A stretch of 64,000 bases of DNA from an uncultured Flavobacteriales bacterium (GCA_913030835.1 CAJWDP010000001.1:1-64000), one strand, 5' to 3'. Shown: positions 49,342 through 58,401, numbered from the stretch's first letter. Made by a program: numbers and translations. Notes: generated by a model not told the origin, from the letters alone.

Positions 49342-49349
49342 TAATTTTG
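49342..49349 (+). promoter_or_regulatory. -7 box of the pseudo-phosphatase/OmpA gene
   Basis: TAATTTTG matches TAnnTTTG and ends six bases before the ATG at 49356. Confidence 0.4.
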
Positions 49350-49355
49350 AATGGT

Positions 49356-51077
49356 ATGAAGTTCCTATTGGTCTTATTTTGTTCCTGTATTTTGTTTCCC
49401 TTGTCTGGTGTTTCACTGCAAGACCCGGGAGATCCGGATTCTGTTGTCAATGAAGTTGACACCATCTGTTTCCGACAAGACTCACTCATTTACATAAATG
49501 ACCCGCGGCATACCTTCTCTACAAATTTTAATTGGCTGGATTCATCCGAGCGTACCATCCTTCCTTCTCCTGAGTTTTATAAAACGCGTTATCAGGAGGG
49601 AGATCTAATGTATAAAGTAGTAGACAATTGGGGCAAGGGGTTTGATTCTCTCTATGGAACAAGGAACCTGAGACCAATACTACATGGTGTTGCTTATCGA
49701 GGTGGAGCGAACAATTATTTTCATGAATCCAAAAAGAGAAAAAACAGCAATCCATTGCCTGCTGATGGAATTGACAATTTATGTGAAGAAGGATTTTCAC
49801 AATCCGTTTATTTGTACCGGACTAATTTTGATTCCGCCCCGCTTACTCACAGTTGCAATTGCTCCAATGGCGGTATCAATCAAATGAAATATGCGCAATA
49901 CGATTATTATGATGAGCAGCATATTTACGACATGCTAAAAATTGTTTATGAAAGTGCCATAAATGATAGCGTTGGGCCTGTTTACTTGCACTGCTGGAAT
50001 GGCTGGCATGCCTCTGGGTACATTTCTGCGTTGATTCTCAAACAATTCTGTGGGATGTCGGATATCGAGGCAACGGCTTATTGGGACCTGGGCACAGATG
50101 GGGCAAATACCAGTCCACGATACAATTCAATTCGTGAGAACATAAAAAACTTTCAGCCCTATCAGGAATTTATGCTGACCAGTGAAAACGGCGAGCGCAT
50201 TTGCCCACCGATGCCGGAGATCATCGACAGCAGCATGCTTTTTCTAACCGTAGAGCACCTGGCCATTGTGCCTGAAGCAATCCCTATAGGAACGATTATG
50301 ATCATGAGCAATGTAAAGTTCGCTCCAAACAGCACAACTCTGCCTGCGGCCGCTTCCAACCCGGACTTGAACTATTTGCTTGATGCACTTCGAAAGAATG
50401 CGGACTTGAAAATAGAGATAGGGGGCCACACGGATAAATCAGGTAAAGCCACAACCAATAAAACGCTATCGGAAAAAAGAGCCCGTTGGGTGCACGACTA
50501 CTTGGTAAAAAATGGGGTTTATCGAGAGCAGCTAACATTTAAAGGTTATGGACACTACAAACCCGCATATACCAACAGAACAAAAGACGGGCGCGCAGCA
50601 AACAGACGAATAGAAATAAAATTGCTTTCCAAAAATAGAGGGAATCAATCACTCTTAGTTGATGAGAGCCCTGCAGATTCATCGTCTAACGAACAGCAAT
50701 TGAAGCTGGAAAACTTACCCACTAGTGAAATAGGAGCGTGCATCATACTGGATGAAGTTACTTTTGAACCGGGTAAATCTGCGATAACAGATTCAAACAG
50801 CACGCAGCTTAAAAATGTTGTTGGCCTCATGAAGGAAAATCCAACCATGATGATTGAGATCGGCGGTTATACAGATAAGTCAGGAATTCCAGAAAAAAAC
50901 CTGTTGATCTCACAAGGCCGGGCGCAAGCTGTTTTCGATTTTCTTATTTCCAAAGGAGTAGAAAAAGAAAGGCTGACCCATGTTGGCTATGGAGATGCAA
51001 AGCCCATCGCGCCCAACAAGTACCGGTGGGGAAGAGATAAGAACAGACGCATAGAGCTTAAATTGACGGCACTGTAA
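49356..51077 (+). CDS. Pseudo-tyrosine-phosphatase domain fused to two OmpA domains
   Basis: 573 residues from the ATG at 49356 (signal MKFLLVLFCSCILFPLSGVS). About 100-285: a dual-specificity-phosphatase-like domain with RPILHGVAYRGGANN at its start and the loop LHCWNGWHASGY. Compared with HCxxGxxR[ST], Cys213 is kept but the essential Arg is Ala219, so catalysis is doubtful. About 315-435 and 460-573: two OmpA C-terminal domains, each with the peptidoglycan-binding set (GGHTDKSG ... NRRIEIKL and GGYTDKSG ... NRRIELKL). Both lie in the periplasm, so the protein probably clamps the cell wall while presenting a binding module. I know no family with this order. Confidence 0.8.
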   Translation: MKFLLVLFCSCILFPLSGVSLQDPGDPDSVVNEVDTICFRQDSLIYINDPRHTFSTNFNWLDSSERTILPSPEFYKTRYQEGDLMYKVVDNWGKGFDSLYGTRNLRPILHGVAYRGGANNYFHESKKRKNSNPLPADGIDNLCEEGFSQSVYLYRTNFDSAPLTHSCNCSNGGINQMKYAQYDYYDEQHIYDMLKIVYESAINDSVGPVYLHCWNGWHASGYISALILKQFCGMSDIEATAYWDLGTDGANTSPRYNSIRENIKNFQPYQEFMLTSENGERICPPMPEIIDSSMLFLTVEHLAIVPEAIPIGTIMIMSNVKFAPNSTTLPAAASNPDLNYLLDALRKNADLKIEIGGHTDKSGKATTNKTLSEKRARWVHDYLVKNGVYREQLTFKGYGHYKPAYTNRTKDGRAANRRIEIKLLSKNRGNQSLLVDESPADSSSNEQQLKLENLPTSEIGACIILDEVTFEPGKSAITDSNSTQLKNVVGLMKENPTMMIEIGGYTDKSGIPEKNLLISQGRAQAVFDFLISKGVEKERLTHVGYGDAKPIAPNKYRWGRDKNRRIELKLTAL

Positions 51078-51706: not shown

Positions 51707-52129
51707 ATGATTGATAACCTACCTGCAGATTTCCGACCGGACAGTAATGTTGAAATTCACAAAATGGATTCAAGCTTCGTTTGGTCAGAGGACAACATCT
51801 TTTTTATTCATTCAATGCCGGATATTGATCATACATTAGAACATGCAAAAAGGCAATTTGAATTTTATAGAAACACATACCTTTCCGAAATAAGACCTAA
51901 ACTCCCTATGATCTGTGACGTGCGGATTGCGCGACCCATAAAAAAAGAGGTTCGGGATTTCTATAGCTCAAAATTTGTTGGAGGTCACACAACAAGATTC
52001 GCTTTTTTGGTAGATTCTCCGGTAAGTATGGTCATTGCCAACTTTTTCATTAGCGTTCAGAAGCTTTCTGTGCCGGTACGTATGTTTACAAAACCGAATG
52101 ATGCGATCATTTGGTGCAAGCAAAATTGA
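51707..52129 (+). CDS. STAS-like small protein preceding a HisKA_2 kinase
   Basis: 140 residues, soluble, no signal peptide. The fold reads as a STAS/SpoIIAA-like alpha-beta unit of the type found next to kinases in Bacteroidota: KLPMICDVRIARPIKKEVRD (central strand and helix), FAFLVDSPVSMVIANFFIS (second strand and helix) and the ending PVRMFTKPNDAIIWC. The Ser of canonical anti-sigma-factor antagonists is not conserved. The downstream kinase gene overlaps it by about 32 bases, so they are coupled. It is more distant from the STAS-like pair at 53644 and 54194 than those are from each other. Confidence 0.65.
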   Translation: MIDNLPADFRPDSNVEIHKMDSSFVWSEDNIFFIHSMPDIDHTLEHAKRQFEFYRNTYLSEIRPKLPMICDVRIARPIKKEVRDFYSSKFVGGHTTRFAFLVDSPVSMVIANFFISVQKLSVPVRMFTKPNDAIIWCKQN

Positions 52130-53162
52130 ACTTAGATTGGATCCGAATCTAGATCAAATATTAAGTCGCTTGGCGACAACTTTGTTGGAATCCACCGATG
52201 AATGGCAATCTGTAGTCAAAAACCTACCCATCGATGCATCAACAAAAAACTCATTAGCTGGACTACATAAGGTCATTCACAGCAAGGCTGATTTTCGAAA
52301 ATTCGAAGACCGCATACAAGAAATGCAAGCCGCACTTATGGCCTATGCTAAACTCGAATTTGATTCCGAATTACCATTGACGGGAGCAACGGATTACATG
52401 GAGGCTCTTGCCATCACAATAAACGTTATCGGGGAGGAATTGAAATCCAGCTACCAACTCAATACAGAACAAAAAGCGAAACTCAACGAGGACTCAATTA
52501 AATTAAAAGACCTAAACGATGAATTGATATCATCCTTGACCACTCAAAAATTCTTGACCAGGGAGCTCCATCATAGAGTTAAAAACAACCTACAGTTTAT
52601 ATCTTCCCTTTTGTGGTTTCATATTAAGGATACAAGTAATGAAGAATTACATGAGGCGTTTTCTTCGCTTGAAAAACAAATAAATGTGATTGCAGAGGTT
52701 CATGAGCTGATGTTGAAATCGCGGGAAGACAATGCTGTTGAACTCAAAGAGTATATTACTGCACTAGGCTCATCCATTATTGCAGCAAGTCCAATAAAAG
52801 GCGAATTACTTGTGTTAGGTGAAACTGTAGATATCAATTCAGAGTGCGCCAATTATCTTGGGATCTGCATGAATGAATTGATCACCAATACGATAAAGCA
52901 TGGGTGGTCAAAGTTACCCTCCGAAGAAAATCGTGTGTTAACAATTTCCATTTCAGTGGATGAAAACGATCTTTCGATTCATTATCAGGAACAAGGATCT
53001 AACTTCGATTATAAATACGAGACTCGGGGAATTGGGTCAGAGTTATTGGAAAAATTGTTATTCCAGCAGCTTCGAGCCAAATCCACTACTTGCGAGGATG
53101 ATCTTGGTTGCCAAAAGTTTGTGATCGGCAAATCGTTTTGGGGACCAATAAAACGCCCCTAA
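52098..53162 (+). CDS. HisKA_2-family soluble histidine kinase with a degenerate ATP-binding site
   Basis: 354 residues from ATG 52098 (52101 is equally possible; the frame opens at 52035 inside the upstream gene). No transmembrane helix. About 95-150: a helical stretch with MEALAITINVIGEELKSSYQ, a known linker in Bacteroidota kinases. About 150-215: HisKA_2 dimer/phospho helix with the RELHHRVKNNLQF H-box (His158/159). About 255-354: HATPase with N-box MNELITNTIKHGW. The G1 box reads HYQEQGSNF where active kinases have DNGxG, so ATP binding may be impaired. Convergent with the receiver gene downstream. Confidence 0.85.
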   Translation: MMRSFGASKIELRLDPNLDQILSRLATTLLESTDEWQSVVKNLPIDASTKNSLAGLHKVIHSKADFRKFEDRIQEMQAALMAYAKLEFDSELPLTGATDYMEALAITINVIGEELKSSYQLNTEQKAKLNEDSIKLKDLNDELISSLTTQKFLTRELHHRVKNNLQFISSLLWFHIKDTSNEELHEAFSSLEKQINVIAEVHELMLKSREDNAVELKEYITALGSSIIAASPIKGELLVLGETVDINSECANYLGICMNELITNTIKHGWSKLPSEENRVLTISISVDENDLSIHYQEQGSNFDYKYETRGIGSELLEKLLFQQLRAKSTTCEDDLGCQKFVIGKSFWGPIKRP

Positions 53163-53187
53163 ATCGAACCTATTCCATTATCAGCAT

Positions 53188-53205
53188 GTAAATGGGACCG
53201 TTTAC
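53188..53205. terminator. Possible terminator hairpin between kinase 1 and the receiver gene
   Basis: GTAAATG and CGTTTAC pair around GGAC (7 pairs including one G-T). No T-run in either direction, so support is weak. Confidence 0.25.
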
Positions 53206-53208
53206 CAA

Positions 53209-53583
53209 CTAAACTTGCTCTTCTTCCCTCCCTTGACGAAGAAGCTCAATCGCTGCAATCACATTGTCTTCATTAAATGGTTTGGTAATATAAGCAATAG
53301 GGTTCGTCTTCAATGCGCTGCTCATCGTGGCTCGGTCACTATTGGCCGTTAGGTAAACAAATGGAATGTCATTTTTATCTAACGATTTACTAATATCAAT
53401 TCCGCTTTCTCCCCCAGACAATCGTATATCCAACAAAGCAATATCCGGACAAAGCACTTTTATTGAATTGGCAACGGTTTCAGTAGTATCGGCAATTCCA
53501 GTCACATAATACTCGTTCTTTTCAAGAACATATTTGATGTAGTTGGCAATAAGTACATCATCTTCAATTATTAAAACTTTCAT
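53209..53583 (-). CDS. Single-domain response regulator (receiver only)
   Basis: 124 residues from the ATG at 53583 (MKVLIIEDDVLIANYIKYV). Receiver pocket: EDD, phospho-acceptor Asp in IALLDIRLSGGES, Thr in FVYLTANSDRA and Lys in AYITKPFNEDN. No output domain follows, so it acts by protein contact or as a phosphate shuttle for the neighbouring kinases. It is convergent with kinase 1 and divergent from the STAS-like gene at 53644, with which it shares a compact promoter region. Confidence 0.92.
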   Translation of the reverse strand: MKVLIIEDDVLIANYIKYVLEKNEYYVTGIADTTETVANSIKVLCPDIALLDIRLSGGESGIDISKSLDKNDIPFVYLTANSDRATMSSALKTNPIAYITKPFNEDNVIAAIELLRQGREEEQV

Positions 53584-53589
53584 AACCCA

Positions 53590-53635
53590 CAAATATGCAT
53601 TATTTGGTGATTAAACACAAACTATATTAACTTTG
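53590..53635. promoter_or_regulatory. Back-to-back promoters of the receiver and STAS-like genes
   Basis: Plus strand: TTTG (53603-53606), 21 bases, TAACTTTG (53628-53635), 8 bases to the ATG at 53644. Minus strand: TTTG (53618-53621), 20 bases, CATATTTG (53590-53597, one mismatch), 6 bases to the ATG at 53583. The two promoters interleave, and the TGATTAAACAC element (53608-53618) lies between them. Confidence 0.55.
53608..53618 (+). repeat. Shared 11-base element TGATTAAACAC, copy 1
   Basis: Identical copies lie at 54082-54092 and 54627-54637, each upstream of a different gene of this signalling cluster. Here it sits between the -33 and -7 boxes of both divergent promoters. Confidence 0.6.
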
Positions 53636-53643
53636 ATTCGCAA

Positions 53644-54045
53644 ATGCAAAATGTTGTCTTAAAACGAGTACACCTGCTGGAGAGTGAGGAAACCTTTTCT
53701 CACCCTGTCATTTGTTTCAACGAATCTAAAACTACCTCTCCCGATCAGGTCTATCTTGATTTTCGTGAAATGCAAAGGTTGTCGGGAGATCGGCCGTTTT
53801 TTGTTTTGGCTGACCTTACTAAAGCCGACCCGCCAAATTTGCAAGTAAGAAGAGCGCTTTCTGCGGCATTTCGTGAATTTAACAGCGATAATTTTATAGG
53901 TGCATATATACACGTAGGGAAATCTAAATTTATAATGGTTGCCGCTAAGTTTGTTTTTGGCTTAATTGGCAAACAAAAATTTCACTGGTTCGATTCAAGA
54001 GAAGAAGCAATTGATGCAATTCCAAAAAATAGAACCAAAATTTGA
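53644..54045 (+). CDS. STAS-like small protein (paralogue B)
   Basis: 133 residues, soluble. Same plan as its downstream paralogue: VYLDFREMQRLSGDRPFFVL, ADLTKADPPNLQVRRALSAA, then FIMVAAKFVFGLIGKQKFHW and a C-terminal EEAIDAIPK helix. Alignment by eye with the protein at 54194 is continuous from LLES/LLSN to AIPK, so this is a tandem duplication. SpoIIAA-like folds usually pass a phosphorylation or binding signal to an anti-sigma or kinase; the partner here is unknown. The -7 box ends only 8 bases before the ATG. Confidence 0.7.
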   Translation: MQNVVLKRVHLLESEETFSHPVICFNESKTTSPDQVYLDFREMQRLSGDRPFFVLADLTKADPPNLQVRRALSAAFREFNSDNFIGAYIHVGKSKFIMVAAKFVFGLIGKQKFHWFDSREEAIDAIPKNRTKI

Positions 54046-54081
54046 ATGGGTTGTATCCGTTTTGAGAAACTCAAGAAAACT

Positions 54082-54092
54082 TGATTAAACAC
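54082..54092 (+). repeat. Shared 11-base element TGATTAAACAC, copy 2
   Basis: Lies 11 bases upstream of the TAACTTTG -7 box (54104-54111) of the third STAS-like gene. Confidence 0.6.
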
Positions 54093-54103
54093 AATCCTAT
54101 TCG

Positions 54104-54111
54104 TAACTTTG
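54104..54111 (+). promoter_or_regulatory. -7 box of the third STAS-like gene
   Basis: TAACTTTG is an exact match, with CTTG 20 bases upstream. Unlike its neighbours this transcript would have a leader of roughly 75 bases. Confidence 0.45.
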
Positions 54112-54193
54112 CACAAATTTTGCGAACCTATTAATTTTTAGGGTAATTCATTTATTTGTATCCTTTTGTTTTACACCATAAAATCAATGAAAA

Positions 54194-54595
54194 TTGAACA
54201 CAGAATCCATCGTTAAAGAGAAAACAAGCAAAGTTGAGCTTCTATCTAATTCTGATGACTTTTCTTGCCCCGTCATTTATTTTAAAGAGGCAATTGAACC
54301 AGAAATTGAGCAGGTTAAACTTGATTTTGCTGAAATTCGGCGGTTAGGAAATAATGCTCCTTTTTACTTGCTCATAGACCTTTCTCAAACAAACCCTCCA
54401 AGAGTCGAGGTCAGGGCTCAATTGTCCAAAGAATTTAATTCTTTTGGAAATTCGTGCAAAAGAGTTTTGGTTTCAACGGGAAAAAATAAATTCTTAACCG
54501 TCGCAGCTAAATTTATCTTCTCTCGTTTTGGGTTTAAAAATTTCGAATTTTTCACTTCAATTGAGAAGGCATTGTTAGCTATTCCAAAAAAATGA
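54194..54595 (+). CDS. STAS-like small protein (paralogue C), uncertain start
   Basis: 133 residues, paralogue of the preceding STAS-like gene (QVKLDFAEIRRLGNNAPFYL, IDLSQTNPPRVEVRAQLSKE, FLTVAAKFIFSRFGFKNFEF, KALLAIPK). In-frame TGA at 54188-54190 leaves TTG at 54194 as the only early start. An ATG at 54187 lies in another frame; loss of one A from the run AAAA (54190-54193) would place it in frame as MKLNTES. So either a TTG start or a sequence or biological frameshift must be invoked. It precedes kinase 2. Confidence 0.68.
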   Translation: MNTESIVKEKTSKVELLSNSDDFSCPVIYFKEAIEPEIEQVKLDFAEIRRLGNNAPFYLLIDLSQTNPPRVEVRAQLSKEFNSFGNSCKRVLVSTGKNKFLTVAAKFIFSRFGFKNFEFFTSIEKALLAIPKK

Positions 54596-54626
54596 AATCT
54601 TACCCTTTTTAGAAAAGATCCTAAAA

Positions 54627-54637
54627 TGATTAAACAC
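54627..54637 (+). repeat. Shared 11-base element TGATTAAACAC, copy 3
   Basis: In the gap between the third STAS-like gene and kinase 2, 22 bases before the kinase ATG at 54660. A TAATTTTA -7-like box begins 2 bases later. Confidence 0.55.
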
Positions 54638-54659
54638 CTTAATTTTATGTAAATTGCTA

Positions 54660-55877
54660 ATGGCTTCTACCACAGTTGAGAAACAACCCAAATACATGAA
54701 TGCTGACGAATTGTCCAATTTTTTTATCGATGTACTTGAAGGGAACCTAAGTATAACTCTCGACGAAATTATATCGGAAAATGATTTAGAAAGACAAAAA
54801 GTTTTATACGGTCTTCACACGCTTCATGAGGAATTAAATTTTGAAAAGGAACGGAGGCTGAAACTACATGAAGATATTAAAGCGGCTTTCCTGAATATTT
54901 CCAGTGTTGTTCTTCTCAACAAAGACTGGGAAATTGAAGAGGCAAATGGCAACTTTTTAAATTTTACCAATCGCCCTCTAGATTCAATAGAGGGCTTTTC
55001 ACTTAACGATTTACTTGAAATTGGAGACAAAACAACTGAGAATTGGAACGCTCTAAAAATTTCAATTGAAAACAATAGCAGTTGGCAGGGAATACTCGGT
55101 TTCAAAAAATCTAAGACAAAAGTCGGCTGGTTGGATGTGAAGGCAATTGTTCTTGCGTCCGGAAAATACCATCAAGAGCAAATCTGGTTAATTGGCAAAG
55201 ACATTACCGATGAAATTGAGTTAGAGCAAGAACTCAAAGAAACGAATCAGAATCTTCGGGATTCATTGGATCAAAAGGAGTTTCTCCTTCGCGAGCTGCA
55301 CCATCGTGTAAAGAATAATTTGCAAATGATTGCAAGTGTGTTTGTTTTGCAATTACAAACTGAAAAAGATGAAAAGCTTGCTGATCATTTGCAAACAATT
55401 CAAACTAAAATTTTTTCGATCAGTAAACTCCATGATATTCTTGTCGAGCAAGCTAGCTTAAATAATGTTGATTTATTGGGATACCTTAAGGCCATAGCCG
55501 AAAACCTTCAAATATCCACTGGTTTTAAAGGTGAAATTTATCTAGAAGGAGATTATTTTGAAATCTCTACACAGTCCGCTCCTCATTTTGGCATCATTCT
55601 AAATGAACTAATTACAAACAGCACCAAGCATGCGTGGACCTCCAATAGTACAGAAAATGAAATTCGAGTCGGTATCTACAAAGAACCGGACAATCTCGTT
55701 TTTCATTATGCGGACAATGGCAAAGGGTTCAATAAAAATGAAGTGACTAGAGGGCTTGGCAGAAAACTTCTGGACATGCTCATATTAGGCCAGTTCAAAG
55801 CCGTAGAACTACAATGTGGTGAAAATGAACATAGCAATTGTCTGTGCTTTAAGATTGACTTAGCTAATATAAATTAA
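54660..55877 (+). CDS. PAS-HisKA_2 soluble histidine kinase
   Basis: 405 residues from the ATG at 54660 (a TTG at 54654 would add two residues). No transmembrane helix. About 20-75: a helical module with a GLHTLHEELNFEKERR stretch matching the GEELKSS linker of kinase 1. About 80-190: a PAS domain (SSVVLLNKDWEIEEANGNFL, then IWLIGKDITDEIELE). About 205-270: HisKA_2 helix with RELHHRVKNNLQM. About 300-405: HATPase with NELITNSTKHAW, YADNGKGF and RGLGRKL, all intact. So kinase 2 keeps what kinase 1 lost. It is the last gene of the cluster. Confidence 0.9.
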   Translation: MASTTVEKQPKYMNADELSNFFIDVLEGNLSITLDEIISENDLERQKVLYGLHTLHEELNFEKERRLKLHEDIKAAFLNISSVVLLNKDWEIEEANGNFLNFTNRPLDSIEGFSLNDLLEIGDKTTENWNALKISIENNSSWQGILGFKKSKTKVGWLDVKAIVLASGKYHQEQIWLIGKDITDEIELEQELKETNQNLRDSLDQKEFLLRELHHRVKNNLQMIASVFVLQLQTEKDEKLADHLQTIQTKIFSISKLHDILVEQASLNNVDLLGYLKAIAENLQISTGFKGEIYLEGDYFEISTQSAPHFGIILNELITNSTKHAWTSNSTENEIRVGIYKEPDNLVFHYADNGKGFNKNEVTRGLGRKLLDMLILGQFKAVELQCGENEHSNCLCFKIDLANIN

Positions 55878-55888
55878 CAGCCGCTATC

Positions 55889-55909
55889 TGGCCTTCCTAA
55901 AGAAGGCCA
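55889..55909. terminator. Terminator hairpin between kinase 2 and the large T9SS cargo
   Basis: TGGCCTTC (55889-55896) and GAAGGCCA (55902-55909), perfect 8-base arms with a CTAAA loop, in the 40-base gap of two convergent genes. No T-run follows in either direction, but position and stability suit a bidirectional terminator. Confidence 0.6.
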
Positions 55910-55917
55910 TTCCCAAC

Positions 55918-58401
55918 TTATTTTCTGACTACTATCCTTCTTGTAATCAACTTTTCGCGGGATGTAATTTTTACCAAATACACGCCGGCTGACTCACCTG
56001 AAATATCGATTCTATTGGAGTTCCCTGGGTTCTGAACCACTGCTATGGTATTCCCTATAATATCCACAATCTCGATTGTGGTATTTGAATAATTCGAAAG
56101 GTTCACGTTAAACAAACCATCCGAAGGATTTGGGAATAAGGTAATGTTCCCTTTGCCATTATTTTCAATCACACTACTTACGTTGTCAACGAAAACCGAT
56201 ATAGAATCCGAACACCCCAACGAATCTGTAACGATAACTGTATACGTTCCTGTTGACAAGCCTGTTAGATCCTCGGTGTCGTCATTGTCTCCGGTGCCAT
56301 CGTTGTCCCAATCGTAGGTATATCCACCGTTTCCACCAGTGACTGTCAAGTCGATCTCACCATTTGAACCGGACGCAATTTCATCAGTAACTGAAGAACC
56401 TAACCCTAGGGTATCCGGTTGACTGATGCTTACAGAATCAGTAAGTGTACATCCGATAGAGTCTGTTACTGTATATGTGTGCGTTCCCGCAGGAAGACCG
56501 GAACCACTCATCATTCCCCAGTCCACTGAGCTGGGCCCGACATTTCCCGTAATAGTAATTACTGCTGTTCCATTTGTATCGCCGTTGCACACTGCATTCG
56601 TTGTTGCCGCAGAAGCCATTAGACCTGAAGTTACTTCAACATCAAATGAGCAGGACCCGGAGTTACCGGAAACATCCGTAACTGTGTAGGTCACTGTAGT
56701 AATTCCCTGAGGAAAAATATCTCCTGAATTATGTGAACTCGACACGGTCAGGCCGGACGCGCAATTGTCCATTTCTGTGGGAGCAGTCCAAGTCACGATT
56801 GCGAGACAACCCGAATCTGAGGAAGCAATAGATACATTTGACGGACAATTCATAAAATACGGTGATAGCGTATCAAGTACCGTTACCGCGGCAACACAAA
56901 AATCTGTGTTAGACAATGAATCTGTTGCCGTCAATGTTACTGAAGTGCCACCCAGAGCAGGGCTGTAAGATGCTAGGGGCACCGGGAAAGCGGCAAACAT
57001 ATTCGAGATTGCTCCATCCAATGCATTAGTCCCGCTAAATCGCCAATCATTGTGGTCAAATGTAGTTCCTAAAACTCGAGTGTCATTGGAGTAGGCCCAT
57101 CCATCCATGTAATCCCATGGCTCACCTGTTCCATCTGTATTGATATCTCCAAATACGTCAACGGCGGAGCCCATATGAAATAACTCGATCGCATCGTCAC
57201 CATTGATTCCCATTGAATTATCTATGTAATCCGCATCAAAACCGAAAAAATCTCTGAATCCGGCAGAATCAGAAGTAACATAAATGAATTGGCCAGCCGC
57301 AACTGAAACCGCCGGGAATGTAAACTCCTCTCCGTCGGTTCCTCCACCGTTATTCGCTGAACCAACTCCATACATGCTTAAGTCAGCAATTGCATTTAAC
57401 GCATACAGCTCAATCCCTTTCGGGACACCACCTGAAAGTGGTCCATCATATGCTGCTGAAATAGCCAAACTGTTTGCGGATGGTGGCACAATGTCCCCGC
57501 AATTGAAGGAGTTGATGTCTATTGACATGCTAAACGGACTGCAATTGTCCGTTGTGCCGCCGTCCACGTCTGCTGCAGTTATCGTCGCCGTACCACTGCT
57601 GTCTAAATAAACATCAATGTTTTGACATGCAACAACAGGCGCTTCCCCATCCGTAACCGTTACGAATATCGTATCCTTATCGCAAAACGGTGTTGGATCG
57701 CAAACTTGGTACGTAATGGTGTCCAATCCGCAAAACCCGGCAGGAGGATCGTAAGAAATACTATCCCCATTTAAGACGGTTGCATTTCCACCAGAAGTTG
57801 GTGGCGCCATAAGGTTCGTCACCAACAAATCTCCGTTAGGGTCGGTATCGTTCGCCTGAACATCAAAGATGTTTCCTGTCGTCCCACCAGAAACTGTGTA
57901 ATAATCCGTATTGGCCACCGGTGGTCCGGGCGCAACTGGATAAACTACTGTTACTCGTGCATATACTCCTGCACCCCAAGCGCTATTGTCTCCTATCTCA
58001 TAGGTTGCAAATATGGCATTGTAGTCAAGATCAACTGTGTTAGAGCCTCCCACCGCGTAATTGGCAGGAGTCAATGGAATTGAAACAACCAATGCTCCAC
58101 AACTGTTAACTGCACCATATGAGCCGTCAGAGGCGCCATTCAGCGTAACAGGGATGCCTGATCCGCCATCATTCCACAATTCATAAATTTCCAAATTCAC
58201 AGAAGTGGGCGTTGCAGCTCCTGTACTTGTCCAAGAAATGTTCAGCGGAGATCCAAGGTAATATTCCCCCGATACAGAACAATTACATCCTGGGCAATCC
58301 GAAGCAGTCAAACCTGATGAAGTGATATCATAAACCACCGTTTGGCTTTGCAAAGCCAAACAGAATAAGAACAAAACAATTGAAGAGTATATTTTTTTCA
58401 T
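55918..58401 (-). CDS. Multidomain secreted protein with T9SS type A sorting domain
   Basis: 827 residues with signal MKKIYSSIVLFLFCLALQSQ. In order: an adhesin-like N-terminal region (about 20-160), a Big/cadherin-like region (about 160-250; NTDYYTVSGGTTGNIFDVQA), a lamin-tail-like domain (about 300-430; PKGIELYALNAIADLSMYG), an HYR domain (about 510-590), SprB-type repeats (about 590-740; GGNGGYTYDWDNDGTGDNDD, GTYTVIVTDSLGCSDS) and the type A C-terminal sorting domain (last 80; ITLFPNPSDGLFNVNL ... GVYLVKITSREKLITRRIVV). Exported by T9SS and cell-surface attached. Ligand unknown. Confidence 0.9.
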   Translation of the reverse strand: MKKIYSSIVLFLFCLALQSQTVVYDITSSGLTASDCPGCNCSVSGEYYLGSPLNISWTSTGAATPTSVNLEIYELWNDGGSGIPVTLNGASDGSYGAVNSCGALVVSIPLTPANYAVGGSNTVDLDYNAIFATYEIGDNSAWGAGVYARVTVVYPVAPGPPVANTDYYTVSGGTTGNIFDVQANDTDPNGDLLVTNLMAPPTSGGNATVLNGDSISYDPPAGFCGLDTITYQVCDPTPFCDKDTIFVTVTDGEAPVVACQNIDVYLDSSGTATITAADVDGGTTDNCSPFSMSIDINSFNCGDIVPPSANSLAISAAYDGPLSGGVPKGIELYALNAIADLSMYGVGSANNGGGTDGEEFTFPAVSVAAGQFIYVTSDSAGFRDFFGFDADYIDNSMGINGDDAIELFHMGSAVDVFGDINTDGTGEPWDYMDGWAYSNDTRVLGTTFDHNDWRFSGTNALDGAISNMFAAFPVPLASYSPALGGTSVTLTATDSLSNTDFCVAAVTVLDTLSPYFMNCPSNVSIASSDSGCLAIVTWTAPTEMDNCASGLTVSSSHNSGDIFPQGITTVTYTVTDVSGNSGSCSFDVEVTSGLMASAATTNAVCNGDTNGTAVITITGNVGPSSVDWGMMSGSGLPAGTHTYTVTDSIGCTLTDSVSISQPDTLGLGSSVTDEIASGSNGEIDLTVTGGNGGYTYDWDNDGTGDNDDTEDLTGLSTGTYTVIVTDSLGCSDSISVFVDNVSSVIENNGKGNITLFPNPSDGLFNVNLSNYSNTTIEIVDIIGNTIAVVQNPGNSNRIDISGESAGVYLVKITSREKLITRRIVVRK

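Follow-up and report, generated by a model that had tools for sequence, protein, structure and literature searches.

STAS-like protein and HisKA_2 kinase pairs around a single receiver in an uncultured Flavobacteriales bacterium: a possible exchangeable input module

A six-gene signalling cluster lies in a 64,000-nucleotide stretch of DNA from an uncultured Flavobacteriales bacterium (GCA_913030835.1, CAJWDP010000001.1:1-64000; hereafter, the window). On balance, we read it as two cognate input–kinase pairs arranged around one receiver, with an input module that is exchangeable across Bacteroidota outputs. A STAS-fold protein made beside the HAMP-like front of varied signalling proteins is apparently an undescribed design in this phylum.

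ORF calls and domain scans gave six genes in the order A, K1, R, B, C, K2 (Table 1), exactly as the initial annotation had placed them, including two HisKA_2 kinases and a lone receiver on the opposite strand. Two further points of that annotation held up: the Pfam scan returned no DNA-binding or enzymatic output domain in the cluster, and hydropathy indicated no membrane helix in its proteins (the highest value in A, 1.71, probably reflects its buried core). The best start of K1 is an ATG inside the end of A, so that the two genes overlap; the ATG of K2 is at 54660. Ahead of A in the window, a protein with two OmpA domains has an N-terminal phosphatase-like stretch, 'HCWNGWHAS', without the usual Arg.

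Table 1. Coordinates of the cluster and neighbouring features in the window
Feature	Position	Strand	Evidence or remark
Protein with two OmpA domains	49347..51077		
A, STAS-like protein (DUF7793), 140 aa	51707..52129	+	PF25056, E 1e-18
K1, soluble HisKA_2 protein, 353 aa	52101..53162	+	HisKA_2, E 1e-19, 70 bits
HAMP-like element of K1 (A-type)	52314..52469	+	profile A7, E 5e-19
R, lone receiver	53209..53583	-	PF00072, E 1e-18
B-C-K2 cassette with flanks	53584..55917	.	interval absent at orthologous same-genus site
TGATTAAACAC before B and 25 bp upstream of R	53608..53618	+	exact copy
B, STAS-like protein (C-type), 133 aa	53644..54045	+	~41-42% identity to C
TGATTAAACAC upstream of C	54082..54092	+	exact copy
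C, STAS-like protein (C-type), 133 aa	54194..54595	+	predicted model matches SpoIIAA fold
TGATTAAACAC upstream of K2	54627..54637	+	exact copy
K2, HAMP-like + PAS + HisKA_2 + HATPase kinase	54654..55877	+	HisKA_2, E 1e-17, 64 bits
HAMP-like element of K2 (C-type)	54711..54860	+	profile A7, E 3.5e-15
T9SS-tail gene	55918..58401		next window gene after K2

The label 'STAS-like', given earlier to A, B and C, proved right for all three. A scored 67.8 bits against DUF7793 (PF25056; cut-off 26 bits) and is homologous to the solved structure 3bl4 (E 5e-19), itself an uncharacterised protein without known function. B and C matched no Pfam family above cut-off and gave no PF25056 match; profile comparison nevertheless established their homology to A (P 5e-6), to which they are only distantly related. 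The model of C (pLDDT 83.4) matched SpoIIAA (1tid, E 1.7e-4) and the SpoIIAA-like protein 2q3l (TM 0.70). The predicted STAS/SpoIIAA fold thus comes from the model for C, and from the profile and 3bl4 for A. When genome contigs were searched with the close alignment, one named relative was found, Crocinitomicaceae bacterium SI075_bin79, and a search for plasmid carriage of A gave no match. DUF7793 is named in no paper of the literature we searched, whose partial coverage falls short of proving absence.

Such a fold, together with the weak resemblance of HisKA_2 ATPase domains to RsbW-type ATPases and one RsbW-like protein in the genome, could point to classical partner switching, in which a Ser/Thr kinase phosphorylates STAS proteins that then swap partners (RsbV/RsbW or SpoIIAA/SpoIIAB type). 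However, the N-cap position of the STAS helix, which we take to be the equivalent of the SpoIIAA phosphoserine, varies between D, S, T and N within the family, and is Lys in A (in the helix 'ISKEARD') and Arg in its ortholog, while B and C have no Ser/Thr there. Judged by sequence, A, B and C all seem to lack the conserved phosphorylatable Ser/Thr of anti-anti-sigma factors. The mixed N-cap, with Lys in A, makes partner switching unlikely for these proteins. Moreover, no RsbW/RsbT-like gene was found in the cluster or among the neighbours scanned, and the genome's sole RsbW-like gene lies away from it on contig C30, where it is flanked by a YbeY-like gene and a gene for a large membrane-type protein. 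Overall, we consider this explanation very improbable.

Both kinases have a HisKA_2 DHp domain with the HRxxN signature (HHRVKNN in each). The ATP-binding N, G1 and G2 boxes of K2 are intact (G1 box, DNGKGF), whereas the G1 box of K1 is degenerate (EQGSNF, and EGESNF in its ortholog L017) beside an intact His box, and K1 may have residual ATP binding. When 35 HisKA_2 cores were aligned, degenerate G1 boxes among the 33 others were those of the K1 ortholog and of the unrelated L066 (EESLSGF). An AlphaFold model of K1 built from three sequences was too poor for use (pLDDT 47), and the PAS domain of K2 is weak in Pfam.

In the tree of the same 35 cores, the kinase core of K2 was sister to K1 plus its Crocinitomicaceae ortholog (100/100). 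The N-terminus of K2 told a different story: it scored best with L015 (z 16.7) and L014 (z 12.8), against 9.6 for the best A-type sequence, and these two proteins of the same family (PAS-HisKA and PAS-GAF-SpoIIE, respectively) are each encoded directly after a C-like STAS gene. The best matches of the K1 element were all A-type. With a core sister to K1 but a C-type front, K2 is a chimera; the N-terminus thus follows the STAS type even where the output behind it differs. The duplicated [STAS-like + kinase] unit suggested initially is therefore borne out for the kinase cores and not for the rest, A being distant from B and C and K2 chimeric.

R contains all key receiver residues (EDD, LLD, LTAN, TKPF), and the NCBIfam models nearest to it are the PhyR / PRK13435 receivers. 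PhyR-type receivers are known to pair with HisKA_2 kinases; this pairing, adjacency and the conserved triad suggest K1 or K2 as the partner kinase of R. No response regulator that might receive the phosphate in a relay was found. A role in anti-phage defence was dropped, as a PADLOC scan gave only a weak match to the receiver of R.

The Crocinitomicaceae genome mentioned above (G002), which belongs to the same genus, has OmpA-RidA-A-K1 and then a convergent R, in the order of the window, with identities of 50% for A, 37% for K1 and 68% for R. Two of its contigs, one carrying A-K1-R and the other the next window genes (the T9SS-tail gene and aroA), share 125 identical end bases, implying that the T9SS-tail gene comes straight after R. 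What is missing from this site is exactly B-C-K2. On this evidence, A-K1-R would be the older unit, and B-C-K2 is a separable cassette. C had no match in either of two same-genus genomes (G001 and G002), and a K2-like gene was not found in G002; the lack of B and C in both genomes favours a gain in the window's lineage rather than a loss in G002. This comparison of close relatives had been set beforehand as a test of the view that all six genes form one pathway. It upheld A-K1-R and detached B-C-K2, so that the six genes need not make up a single pathway. Since one genome of the genus has the added branch and another does not, the two amount to a natural experiment.

The same data could mean that A-K1-R and B-C-K2 are independent and adjacent by chance, with no functional link between them: the cassette is absent from the site in G002, and in two same-family genomes a C-like gene abuts a K2-like N-terminus without any R. 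On the other hand, the sister relationship of the two kinase cores favours a shared receiver specificity, and the cassette borders directly on R, with a common divergent intergenic region of 60 bp. We doubt a chance neighbourhood, while granting it a real minority share of the probability.

An 11-bp sequence, TGATTAAACAC, occurs in three exact copies in the window (0.06 expected), one before each gene of the cassette (Table 1). The whole genome has five copies, of which the remaining two are inside coding sequence, and no intergenic site other than those before B, C and K2 has one. TGATTAAACAC is possibly a private operator, and its first copy, lying in the R/B divergent interval, may act on R too. 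At B and C, TAACTTTG follows 9 and 11 bp beyond TGATTAAACAC and matches the Bacteroidota -7 box. The C-like genes of the cassette relatives showed no copy of TGATTAAACAC, and no hairpin was found before K2.

Both K1 and K2 contain a previously unannotated, 52-residue HAMP-like element, and an element of ~50 residues recurs N-terminally in the products of genes that immediately follow a STAS-like gene. Its motif reads ..YAxxdF....SexxDexDAlxxGiNMLGEEL in A-type partners and ..lYGLxxLxEDLxF in C-type ones. The Pfam HAMP model did not match K1 or K2, and an hhalign comparison with canonical HAMP was weak (12%, P 0.0025), though in register; 'HAMP-like' is a descriptive name for what, by these scores, would fall outside the HAMP domain proper.

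A search with the element profile (A7) through 120 related genomes and the window's own found only 29 places, and at 27 of these the element-bearing gene was immediately preceded by a STAS-like gene in the same orientation or fused to one. The arrangement also held at 12 of the 14 places outside the profile seed (exceptions, G018:C205 and G007:C22). By our own estimate, from ~65 STAS-like genes among ~300,000, chance adjacency would be ~2 in 10,000 per gene. Start and stop codons overlapped in 18 of 35 distinct pairs of STAS-like gene and partner. The converse association was looser, as 15 of 56 A-type STAS places in relatives were paired with a HAMP-like partner. More pairs occur elsewhere in the phylum, some with weak element scores.

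Within the genus there are also three natural fusions of STAS, HAMP-like element and PAS (L009:4878-6512, L194:3040-4605 and L195:2030-3604), spread over all three of its genomes, including one on contig C55 of the window's own. Conserved order, overlapping genes, STAS-matched N-termini and these fusions strongly support the proposal that a STAS-like protein and its kinase form a functional pair. Two of the three fusions have a C-terminus resembling a histidine kinase without its His.

Behind the element, the outputs vary: HisKA_2 (K1, K2 and L019-L021), HisKA_3 followed by a LuxR-type regulator (L116, L145, L149-L151), HisKA (L015, L137, L139, L144, L179), a hybrid HisKA-REC-Hpt (L141), a SpoIIE phosphatase (L014) and an AraC HTH (L146, L148). 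The original suggestion that the cluster acts by protein contact fits the six genes, yet relatives use this input module to drive LuxR-type and AraC regulators and the SpoIIE phosphatase. The AraC-type HTH at the end of the L146 and L148 partners suggests a possible part for DUF7793 in transcription there. In the phylum sample, DUF7793 scored highest at loci L146, L147, L148 and L155, and each of these genes is followed by one for a protein with a weak HAMP-like element.

STAS proteins serve as outputs in some pathways, and since R has no output domain and solo STAS-like copies exist, A, B and C might be downstream targets of the kinases instead of inputs. In relatives, however, the pair already has an output, being located upstream of a LuxR-type response regulator or having a partner that ends in an AraC HTH, and the fusions place the STAS part N-terminally, the usual position of a sensor. 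We therefore hold a role as targets to be unlikely. As to the STAS-like proteins as inputs, it seems rather probable that they belong to a Bacteroidota-wide toolkit, in which small STAS-fold proteins from several subfamilies would each work in trans through the HAMP-like element that suits them, so that one kind of cytoplasmic sensor could be connected to three histidine kinase classes, SpoIIE phosphatases and AraC regulators. The specificity of a pair would reside in the element, and K2 would be an example of its transfer to a new kinase core.

As for binding, docking site, direction of phosphate flow and signal, we infer the following scheme. K1 would be bound by A, and K2 by B and C; these soluble STAS-fold proteins would dock on the N-terminal HAMP-like/coiled-coil element of their kinase and shift the signalling state of its dimer, phosphorylation of a STAS serine being unnecessary. 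Its ATP boxes being intact, K2 would provide the kinase activity, with R accepting the phosphate, while K1, with a degenerate G1 and an intact His box, would be a phosphotransfer protein or a phosphatase acting on R, as PhyT is for SdrG. The degenerate G1 box of K1, the PhyT precedent and the PhyR-type models nearest to R are what suggest this direction of flow. A-K1-R would be ancestral, with other HisKA_2 kinases feeding it in relatives and serving R in G002, and B-C-K2 would be an added input branch.

The initial annotation knew of no described pathway of this composition, and our searches, within the same partial coverage of the literature, on STAS-like proteins and histidine kinases in the phylum likewise gave none. 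The closest known systems offer partial likenesses. In Pseudomonas aeruginosa, SiaC binds the helical stalk of the dimeric SiaD and sets its activity (PMC8457831); there, too, a small STAS-related protein is encoded beside its target, a dimeric signalling enzyme. However, SiaC is a DUF1987 protein controlled via phosphorylation by the kinase SiaB, whereas the cluster has DUF7793 and its relatives, no conserved phosphosite and targets that are mainly histidine kinases; the Pfam scan found no DUF1987, SiaA/SiaB or diguanylate cyclase in it. RsbT acts in trans on the linker of RsbU, a module that also fronts phosphatases, histidine kinases and diguanylate cyclases (PMC12143880). This, again, is an in-trans partner working on an exchangeable N-terminal/linker module, but RsbT belongs to the GHKL kinases rather than the STAS proteins and its target has a different N-terminal domain, and the cluster is without RsbR/RsbS/RsbT. 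By analogy, the STAS-like protein would be an in-trans input docking on the element, working like SiaC-SiaD and RsbT-RsbU while being a member of neither.

The third system, Pak-SdrG-PhyT-PhyR, resembles the cluster in combining HisKA_2 kinases with a lone receiver domain and with a HisKA_2-type protein whose ATPase is degenerate. PhyT, which has an HRxxN DHp and such an ATPase, acts as a phosphotransferase together with SdrG, a single-domain receiver (PMC5898713). By its sequence (degenerate G1 box, intact His box), K1 is a candidate PhyT-type protein, and a lone receiver is adjacent. Yet PhyT is membrane-anchored and encoded beside PhyR, whereas K1 is soluble and STAS-paired, and the cluster has no PhyR. 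Nor did the PhyR-NepR-EcfG system appear: R is a lone receiver, and no sigma-like or NepR gene was found among the scanned neighbours.

Bacteroidota have many soluble kinases that lack an obvious sensor. Should the STAS-fold protein be the missing input, many such orphan kinases would gain a partner and a family of unknown function a role, and the idea of an exchangeable toolkit, drawn from RsbT-RsbU, would obtain a second case, independent of the first, whose docking element can be tested.

Some relatives show further elaborations. Tandem arrays contain at least five C-type STAS-like genes (L103/L109/L113, in G589) or five A-type ones (L140, in G463); the last STAS-like gene of the L140 array abuts a gene for a HAMP-like + PAS protein. 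At L142 (5235-7934), the C-type element is tandemly repeated at the start of a 900-aa protein encoded behind a C-type STAS gene.
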